Shown here piece by piece: positions 28,873-31,783 of a stretch of DNA of 64,000 bases (the first letter of the stretch is position 1; the number at the start of each line of letters is the position of its first letter). The notes beneath the pieces are model-generated. The model did not search any database. It was not told the origin of the DNA and worked only from the letters and a program-made list of their open reading frames with translations. The stretch spans positions 434,001 to 498,000 of the forward strand of contig NZ_CP059220.1 in the NCBI RefSeq assembly GCF_014252435.1, written 5' to 3'. Made by a program: the position numbers and the translations under genes. Source of the DNA: Blattabacterium cuenoti. GTDB lineage: Bacteria > Bacteroidota > Bacteroidia > Flavobacteriales > Blattabacteriaceae.

Positions 28873-29747
28873 ATAATGAAAATTAATAAAATTATAATTT
28901 AATGAATTAGGGATTTTCGTGAAAACGTTTTTTCGTTTCTATAAATAGAATAAATTTTTCAATAAAAATTTTATAAAAATCGTCCTATTTTGACAAGTGG
29001 TTTTTGAAAAAAATTCATTAAGGAATATTTTCTGTTGATAGAATATATGAAAAAAAAAGTTAAATAGATAAAATTTTTTCTTAAAGAAAAAAAAATAAAA
29101 AACGTTTTGTTTATTATACTTGTCCGGATTTCACTAATAAAATTTTACGATTGGTTATTTGTGATTTGATCAAGATACAATCTAATAATTAATATGCTAT
29201 ATAAAACAATTTATTATGAACTTTTTTTCATAACATATTAATTTATATAAATTCTAATATAAAAAATTGAATAAAATTTACGAATATAATTTGTAATAAC
29301 GAATTTGATTCGATAATAAAAACGAAAAATAATAATAGATATTGATATTTTGAATATTATTTCCAAATATATCCATTTCTATTAAAAAAGAATAATATTT
29401 CTATATCCGTTTTACAACAACACAAAAAAAATATTTTTCAATCTAAATAAAAATATATTTTATGAATAATGATTCATATTCTTATTCAATTTATCAATTG
29501 AATAATCATTCCATATTGAAAACACAATTTTGTAATCTTTAAATAACGGAAAAAAATATAATAATCCAATGTTCGTTTTTGATTACAATTGTTATAATAA
29601 TTTAAAAAAAGGAAAAAATGTTCTTTCAAAAAATCATAAATGTATACACATTTTTTGAAAGAAAAAAAACCTTTTGATAAAAAAAAATATCCAAATTCAA
29701 AACATGATTTTGATAATATTGACACACTGAATTTTTTAAATGAATAA
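28873..29747. other. Longest gene-free stretch of the window, with several hairpins
   Basis: These 875 bases between the end of ribD and the ferredoxin gene hold no recognisable protein or RNA gene. They carry small perfect inverted repeats at 29214-29233, 29461-29478 and 29482-29505, and two copies of the palindrome AAAACGTTTT (28922-28931 and 29099-29108). An open frame of 91 codons on the minus strand (29486-29761) is Phe/Tyr/Lys-rich, contains one hairpin and overlaps ribD; I do not consider it a gene. The stretch may be an eroded gene, a terminator plus promoter region, or part of an origin. Confidence 0.6.
29461..29505. repeat. Tandem perfect hairpins downstream of ribD
   Basis: TATGAAT-AATG-ATTCATA (29461-29478) is a 7-bp hairpin with a four-base loop; TTATTCAATT-TATC-AATTGAATAA (29482-29505) is a 10-bp hairpin with a four-base loop. 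They are three bases apart. They could end or stabilise the transcript of the tRNA-Val-rpsU-aroE-ribD unit that comes from the right. Confidence 0.6.
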
Positions 29748-30785
29748 TTATTTATATACAAAATTTATTTTATTATCATGTGATAGTATACAAATAGATA
29801 TTGTTCTATTAATATTTATTTTTTTATACATTAATCCTTTTACTTTAGGAGATAGGATTCCATTACTTAAATAAATATTAAAAGTAGTAATACGACATTC
29901 GTCCCAAATATTTTTTTTAAGAAAACTTTTTATGATTTTATTTTCTTCATTTATGATAAAAGATTGTATTTTTTTTTGATATAAAAATTTTAATACTTTT
30001 TCTATCATGTTTTTTTTAAAAGATATTTGGATGTATTCTACATTTTCTTTGTCATTTTTTTTTTTTTCACTGAAAATAATAGTCCTCAATTTTTCATTGA
30101 AAAGGAAAAATCGATTCGTTATTGATAATTTTTGATCAAAAAAAATTTGAATAGAATGAACATTATTCCAGTTTATCAATTTCCGATTTAAATTTTTTTT
30201 TCCTATTAAGAAACTATTCTCTTCAATTTTCCATTTAGAAAATAATTCTATACAGTACTTATCACTAGTAAGTGTATTTTTTCCATATGGAAAAAATATA
30301 AAACCATCTATACTTTGAGACCATGTTAAAATAATATAAGGTCTTTTTTTTTCATAGAAAGTAAAAAAACGTTTATTTAAATGATAACATTCATATTTCA
30401 AAAAATTTTCAATAACTATTACTCCATATTTTTTCAATTCTTTTCCTAAATTATTAAATTTATAAAATGGATTTTTTATACCTATTATTACTTTTGAAAG
30501 TTTATTTTTTATGATTAAGTTTATACCATTATAAAAATTTTGATAAGAAAAATAGAATTCCAATGTGATATATAACGTAGATTTTTTTAACAAATCTTTA
30601 TCTTTCATTCTATTAATAGCTTGTTCAATTGGAAGTTCATTTTTTTGGTTATCAAACCAAGATTCCGAAATAATTTTTCCATTTTTTTCTATGACACATC
30701 CTAACATTGGATGAGGATAAGTAGATCCTAATCCGTTTTTAGCTAATTGAATGGCCCTCATCATAAAAATTTTTTTTTTTTCCAC
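29748..30785 (-). CDS. ribD: RibD-like protein with a degenerate active site (likely inactive)
   Basis: RibD normally deaminates and then reduces the pyrimidine intermediate of riboflavin synthesis. The 345-residue product aligns along its length with Bacteroidetes RibD: AIQLAKNGLGSTYPHPMLGCVI (10-32), STLYITLE (69-76), NKRFFTFYEKKRPYIILTWSQSIDG. The deaminase zinc site is gone: the His of the HAE motif is absent (ELPIEQAI, 50-57), and in the PCSHxGxTPPC block both Cys are replaced (Tyr78, Gly87). The reductase part has also lost the TVxxDxP segment after LIGKK. The frame is still open, so this is probably a gene in early decay or with another role. The start is GTG at 30785; ATG at 30764 is an alternative. 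It lies 3 bases after aroE. Confidence 0.75.
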   Translation of the reverse strand: MEKKKIFMMRAIQLAKNGLGSTYPHPMLGCVIEKNGKIISESWFDNQKNELPIEQAINRMKDKDLLKKSTLYITLEFYFSYQNFYNGINLIIKNKLSKVIIGIKNPFYKFNNLGKELKKYGVIVIENFLKYECYHLNKRFFTFYEKKRPYIILTWSQSIDGFIFFPYGKNTLTSDKYCIELFSKWKIEENSFLIGKKNLNRKLINWNNVHSIQIFFDQKLSITNRFFLFNEKLRTIIFSEKKKNDKENVEYIQISFKKNMIEKVLKFLYQKKIQSFIINEENKIIKSFLKKNIWDECRITTFNIYLSNGILSPKVKGLMYKKININRTISICILSHDNKINFVYK

Positions 30786-30788
30786 TTA

Positions 30789-31562
30789 TTATAAATTGTT
30801 ATTATTCCATATTTTCCAAGATTCTTCTGCTTGAATGTATAACATCTCTAATCCATTTTTAATGGTAGCTCCATTTTTCTCTCCTTTCCTTAGAAATAAA
30901 GTTTTATTGGGATTATAAACTAAATCATAAAAATAATGTTGATCAGATATATATTGATATGGTAAAGGTGGAAAACTATTTATATTTGGATATGTACCCA
31001 ATGGAGTGCAATTGATAATAATTCTATATTCCTTTAATAAATTTTTATTGATATCCTCATAAATTAACATTCCTTTTTGTTTTTTTCTCGATATATATTG
31101 ATACTTGATTTTCCATTTTTTTAGGACATATGAAATGGATTTAGATACACCGCCAGTGCCTAAAATTAAAGCTTTCAATGTATTTTTAGAATACAAAATT
31201 TGATTTATATTTTTTATGAAAGATCCTTCAAATCCAATATAATCCGTATTATATCCTATTTTTTCATATTTATTTATTTTTATTACGTTGACAGATCCTA
31301 TTTTTTTTGCTATAGAATTAATTTTTGTTAAATATGGAATAATACTTTTTTTATAAGGAATAGTTACATTACATCCTTTTATGTAAGGATTTTTAAAAAT
31401 GGAATCAACTTGTTTGATATCTGGAATATCATAAATAACATAATAACAATTATTTATTGATTCTTTTTTAAATTTATTTAAAAAGAAATTCTTTGAAAAA
31501 GAATAATGTATTTTTTTTCCAATTAATCCAAAAATGGATTGATATTTATCTTGACCAAACAT
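30789..31562 (-). CDS. aroE: Shikimate dehydrogenase
   Basis: AroE reduces 3-dehydroshikimate to shikimate with NADPH in the aromatic amino acid pathway. The 257-residue product has the substrate-binding serines in HYSFSK, the catalytic Lys in NVTIPYKK, the Asp in GYNTDYIGFEGS, a slightly altered NADP loop LGTGGVSKSISYVLK, NCTPLGTYPN and the closing GLEMLYIQAEESWKIW. All catalytic residues are present, in contrast to ribD just downstream. It is probably cotranscribed with rpsU and ribD. Confidence 0.94.
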   Translation of the reverse strand: MFGQDKYQSIFGLIGKKIHYSFSKNFFLNKFKKESINNCYYVIYDIPDIKQVDSIFKNPYIKGCNVTIPYKKSIIPYLTKINSIAKKIGSVNVIKINKYEKIGYNTDYIGFEGSFIKNINQILYSKNTLKALILGTGGVSKSISYVLKKWKIKYQYISRKKQKGMLIYEDINKNLLKEYRIIINCTPLGTYPNINSFPPLPYQYISDQHYFYDLVYNPNKTLFLRKGEKNGATIKNGLEMLYIQAEESWKIWNNNNL

Positions 31563-31585: not shown

Positions 31586-31783
31586 TTATTCTTCATTTTT
31601 GATCCTCATTTTTTCTCGATATATAGCTCTTAAAATTTCATTTCTTCTTTCTTCTGAAGGTTTAACAAACTGTTGTCTTTCTCTAAATTCTTTCAAAACT
31701 CGAGTTTTATCAAACTTTTTTTTACTTTTTTTTAAAGCTTTATCTATGGATTCCCCTTCTCTAACGTTTATAATTAAAATCAT
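31586..31783 (-). CDS. rpsU: 30S ribosomal protein S21
   Basis: S21 is a small basic protein near the 3' end of 16S rRNA. The 65-residue product has the family pattern: VREGESIDKALKKSKKKFDKT, then the Arg-rich KEFRERQQFVKPSEERR. Its length is typical. It follows tRNA-Val by 49 bases and precedes aroE. Confidence 0.95.
   Translation of the reverse strand: MILIINVREGESIDKALKKSKKKFDKTRVLKEFRERQQFVKPSEERRNEILRAIYREKMRIKNEE

Follow-up and report, generated by a model that had tools for sequence, protein, structure and literature searches.

A probable RibD pseudoenzyme retained after loss of the riboflavin pathway in Blattabacterium

Plant RibD proteins of the PyrR type retain a deaminase domain even though its zinc ligands are absent; their reductase half is active and the riboflavin pathway is complete. 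The RibD homologue described here, from Blattabacterium cuenoti, likewise retains a deaminase half without zinc ligands, but its reductase also appears to be dead and the pathway is gone. The homologue resembles the bifunctional RibD/RibG enzymes (TIGR00326; PDB 3zpc, 2b3z, 2g6v and 2hxv) in its full length and in the order of its two halves. The homology extends over residues 8-319 and the gene has the same genomic place as ribD of its relatives. Unlike those enzymes, however, it has lost the zinc ligands, the catalytic Glu, and the substrate-binding and reductase catalytic residues. A comparable pathway history is found in Blochmannia, also an insect symbiont, in which rib genes (ribABCDH) have been lost in parallel and ribF is kept (PMC4389277). 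In B. obliquus the ribABCD genes are annotated as pseudogenes, a class recognised in that study from nonsense mutations, frameshifts or gaps (PMC4389277), whereas the Blattabacterium ribD gene is in frame and open.

The window, that is, the whole stretch of 64,000 nucleotides that was analysed, is carried by a complete single contig of 586,140 bases (a Blattabacterium genome of about 586 kb). The features of the locus are collected in the table. The ribD gene starts with GTG and has no internal stops. It is the sole copy: no further ribD was found anywhere in the genome of the window strain, so that the gene is not a mere paralogue of an intact second copy, a possibility raised in the first-pass annotation of this DNA. 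The rpsU-aroE-ribD block recurs at other Blattabacterium loci. The LuxC-like remnant adjoining ribD is an example of a neighbouring gene that did decay.

Table. Features of the ribD locus (positions are those of the window)
Feature	Position	Strand	Remarks
ribD homologue	29748..30785	-	345 aa; uninterrupted frame; predicted to be dead at both active sites
Deaminase zinc region, residues 51-87	30525..30635	-	L51, Y78, G87 at the positions of the ligands H, C, C
Eroded reductase loop, residues 197-206	30168..30197	-	NLNRKL..W replaces TVLNDNPKLNVRKW
Reductase-domain N279-E280-E281, replacing the conserved E-G-G	29943..29951	-	by alignment
aroE	30789..31562	-	intact; 3 bases upstream of ribD; control gene
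rpsU	31586..31783	-	intact; opens the rpsU-aroE-ribD block
LuxC-like acyl-CoA reductase remnant	28873..29747	+	decayed; intact beside ribD in relatives, e.g. G004

The deaminase zinc block aligns without gaps with 37 orthologues from strains that retain ribH and ribE. All 37 share the three zinc ligands, which are H71, C98 and C107 in the numbering of the G028 protein; the window protein has L51, Y78 and G87 at these positions. The catalytic Glu73 (same numbering) has become I53, and the substrate-binding His and Thr have become S80 and F84. In the reductase half the segment TVLNDNPKL is reduced to NLNRKL by deletion of Thr-Val and replacement of the Asp and Pro, and the VEGG motif reads INEE. 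The reductase catalytic residues K156, R188, D204, R211 and E290, defined in the A. baumannii enzyme (PMC3668577), align with T, K, L, I and N. Judged from these residues, the protein is predicted to be catalytically dead in both halves. The first-pass annotation had described an open ribD frame without any zinc ligands, a gap-free deaminase block, a reductase half lacking the usual TVxxDxP, and intact aroE and rpsU alongside; each of these points was borne out, and its coordinates and residues for the zinc region were exact. Sequencing or assembly error was considered as the cause and is next to impossible, given the open frame, the distribution of the changes along the entire gene, the normal neighbouring genes and the similar wear in six other genomes.

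An alignment of 44 open ribD genes places the protein within RibD by descent, on the basis of full-length homology and the conserved position after aroE. It scores 86.2 bits against TIGR00326, well short of the equivalog cut-off of 156.35 (an intact relative scores 271), and lacks both the zinc His-Cys-Cys set with its catalytic Glu and the reductase catalytic residues expected of that family. The RibD_C domain (PF01872) is recognised with 33 bits against a gathering cut-off of 24.1, and the deaminase domain PF00383 gave no match in the window protein at its gathering cut-off. None of the marks of a plain pseudogene, namely stops or frameshifts, an omega near 1 or wear that is blind to the active sites, is present. 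The protein is best described as RibD by descent that lies below the equivalog cut-off and whose catalytic sites appear to be lost.

The genome of the window strain (G000), one of 49 Blattabacterium genomes compared, contains no ribB, ribH or ribE, and only ribF remains of ribB, ribH, ribE and ribF. The strain is thus predicted to be unable to make riboflavin de novo. Recent loss of the synthesis at the ribD step had been proposed in the first-pass annotation. The loss of synthesis stands, but it is not confined to ribD and is probably not recent, because the former ribH and ribE sites have no recognisable remnant. The former ribH site is a spacer of 21-462 bases in six of the pathway-less genomes that retain ribD. 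The former ribE site is a spacer of 66-294 bases in three genomes; in the others it falls within a more extended decayed region. At none of these sites, including those of the window strain, could a remnant of either gene be recognised, with the sole exception of ribE in G039; the remaining matches, obtained when the empty sites were compared with ribE and ribH at the nucleotide level, were scattered, AT-rich and on both strands, and were dismissed as noise. Rescue by a separate deaminase was also considered: the window genome has two other PF00383 deaminases, but strains without ribD have two as well, so that these are not specific.

Ten of the 49 genomes lack ribH, and exactly these ten lack ribE as well (G000, G006, G008, G009, G014, G015, G030, G033, G039 and G040). 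Eight of the ten have no ribB, whereas G039 has a broken fragment of it and G040 an intact copy. The ribB of G040 (L150) is well conserved in the absence of ribH and ribE, which suggests that RibB or its product is used outside riboflavin synthesis in this strain. There was no match to ribF in G030 (L132, between 10997 and 11322), and this strain may be without FMN or FAD production from riboflavin. Matches to GTP cyclohydrolase II (PF00925) were found in none of the 49 genomes, though 39 strains retain ribH and ribE. This step is a gap common to Flavobacteriales according to a published survey (PMC9603385), and for that reason its absence was not scored here as a loss; the first pathway enzyme must be of another kind, or be otherwise supplied, in this genus.

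A tree was calculated from 11 neighbouring genes of a single 20-kb neighbourhood, with ribD excluded. The ten genomes fall into five placements: (G000,(G009,G030)); (G008,(G033,(G006,G014))); G039 beside the intact G010; G040 beside the intact G019; and G015. The pathway was therefore lost about five times independently. Local support was 0.99-1.0 for the groups tested, although the size of the two larger groups could in part be an effect of long branches. In the group of the window strain a pdxA-like gene survives as weak remnants in the window's genome (L130, 4002-4073) and in G009 (L131, 3792-4364) and gave no match in G030, so that vitamin B6 synthesis may have been lost there too.

Examination of ribD in the related strains, which the first-pass annotation had recommended along with a search for the other rib genes, gave no match in three of the ten pathway-less genomes (G006, G014 and G015). 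In the remaining seven, G000 included, the gene is open over its whole length and its active sites are worn. These seven were selected by their missing ribH and ribE and not by the condition of ribD. Relative to the 110 columns that are invariant in the other 37 genomes whose ribD is open, the number of departures is 39 in G000, 50 in G030, 30 in G009, 28 in G033, 23 in G008, 18 in G040 and 9 in G039, compared with 0-6 for the reference genomes when each is left out in turn.

The active-site residues were taken from the structure paper of A. baumannii RibD (PMC3668577) and mapped by alignment to 3zpc, which divides the invariant columns into 20 active-site and 90 other columns. The window ribD has lost 16 of the 20 but only 23 of the 90 (Fisher p = 9e-6). 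The same lean towards the active sites is seen in all seven genes, with p < 0.06 in four of them. Furthermore, 39 invariant columns are unchanged in all seven genes, where 13 would be expected had the changes in each gene fallen on random columns, and 16 have changed in at least five of the seven, against an expectation of 1; these overlaps are swollen by shared ancestry within the two larger groups, and the per-gene tests carry more weight.

The worn proteins might still be enzymes, having another substrate or altered chemistry, and five of the seven do retain the three zinc ligands while having lost substrate-binding residues. The catalytic residues lost differ between lineages, however, and the window protein retains none of the zinc ligands, nor the catalytic Glu or the reductase Lys, Arg, Asp, Arg and Glu, which makes continued catalysis very improbable.

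The frame of the gene was compared with a neutral simulation, in which an intact ribD was mutated with the fourfold-site base composition of these genomes. With a living relative rather than the ancestor as the starting sequence, 8-10 stops are expected by the time the wear reaches 23 of the 90 other columns, and about 25 at 16 of the 20 active-site columns; the window gene has none. Compared with the 37 reference genes, the seven have undergone about 35 insertions or deletions, every one of them in frame. The worn branches are 0.5-1.5 neutral substitutions per site long in six of the seven lineages and 0.26 in G039.

A custom codon model was fitted to ribD together with three control genes in a joint analysis of 20 genomes. 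The window ribD branch has an omega of 0.355, compared with 0.142 in background ribD and 0.146 in the control genes of the window branch, the caveat being that some branches have diverged strongly at synonymous sites. On the branch of the window strain aroE, the comparison suggested in the first-pass annotation, has an omega of 0.156. Both omega = 1 (2dlnL 46) and omega = background (2dlnL 34) are rejected for the window branch, and both are rejected in all seven worn lineages. Splitting the value of 0.355 into a functional and a subsequent neutral period would require about 0.19 neutral substitutions per site, for which about 14 stops are expected. The frame and the non-catalytic conserved residues of the window ribD have been under purifying selection on this branch, though less strictly than in the enzyme, as the raised omega shows.

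These results bear on the explanation of an ordinary lag in decay, that ribD is merely the last gene of its pathway to go, functionless and under relaxed selection, and has escaped a stop by chance. Symbionts usually lose genes once a pathway has been inactivated, and the ribABCDH genes of Blochmannia are an example (PMC4389277). An omega above background in each of the seven worn lineages, the absence of ribD from three pathway-less strains and the gradation of wear from G039 to G030 are all in keeping with such a lag. Nevertheless it is unlikely: 8-14 stops are expected for the window strain and none is seen, the roughly 35 indels are all in frame, and the loss of active-site residues, three times that of the other invariant residues, is not predicted by neutral drift even when codon mutability is allowed for. 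Taken one at a time, only the least worn genes are compatible with a lag, that is, G039 and perhaps G040.

Among readings that invoke selection on frame and fold, the main alternative to a non-catalytic role is selection against a misfolded product. On this view ribD would still be transcribed behind aroE and would have its truncated or misfolding mutants purged while its protein does nothing, and the residues of the active site would be the first to go, since they often favour activity at the expense of stability. Catalytic-site losses in parallel lineages, with fold positions and frame retained, would follow from this, as would the tolerated absence of the whole gene in three strains. On the other hand, a gene that could be silenced or deleted quickly and without harm would not be expected to survive on long branches, as this one does, and early stops would yield merely short peptides. 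Selection against harm alone is considered distinctly improbable.

On balance, the window ribD is somewhat more probably than otherwise a maintained pseudoenzyme, whose fold is selected and whose catalysis is dead, kept for a non-catalytic role. Death of the pathway (ribB, ribH and ribE gone, ribF kept) would have released the active sites of RibD while frame and fold were kept. The protein would still be produced and still be folded as RibD, and would be kept for a role such as binding or scaffolding. AlphaFold2, applied to the window protein plus one relative (two sequences), gave a mean pLDDT of 39, too low for the model to be of use, so that retention of the fold is judged from the sequence. 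Reuse of the protein, also suggested in the first-pass annotation, would fit better than recent loss, as judged by the selection acting on its sequence.

The non-catalytic role may either have been present in the enzyme and been unmasked when the pathway died, or have been gained afterwards. The former is favoured, because the same state occurs in six other pathway-less strains that represent several independent losses. It is tentatively proposed, as a quite possible generalisation, that Blattabacterium RibD has a second, non-catalytic role exposed by repeated pathway loss, which has produced parallel pseudoenzymes with active sites released and with fold and frame kept. The three pathway-less strains without detectable ribD count against a maintained role, and any such role must be dispensable there. 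Weak selection at a time before function was lost could also account for part of the wear.

The erosion of pathways in reduced symbiont genomes is usually likened to falling dominoes, the loss of a first gene being followed by the decay of the others. Here, by contrast, the pathway was lost about five times and one gene has outlasted it in seven strains with its frame guarded. These natural replicates make a hidden second role of RibD testable. A ribD gene call in such genomes, moreover, does not equate with riboflavin synthesis.

In two further strains, G007 (L113) and G043 (L121), ribD is frameshifted despite the presence of ribB, ribH and ribE. These genes, which contain stops, were considered as decay controls and were not scored as worn, since all 20 active-site residues are intact and frameshifts lie in poly(A) runs, namely that of G043 and one of those of G007. 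Polymerase slippage could restore some ribD product in both strains.
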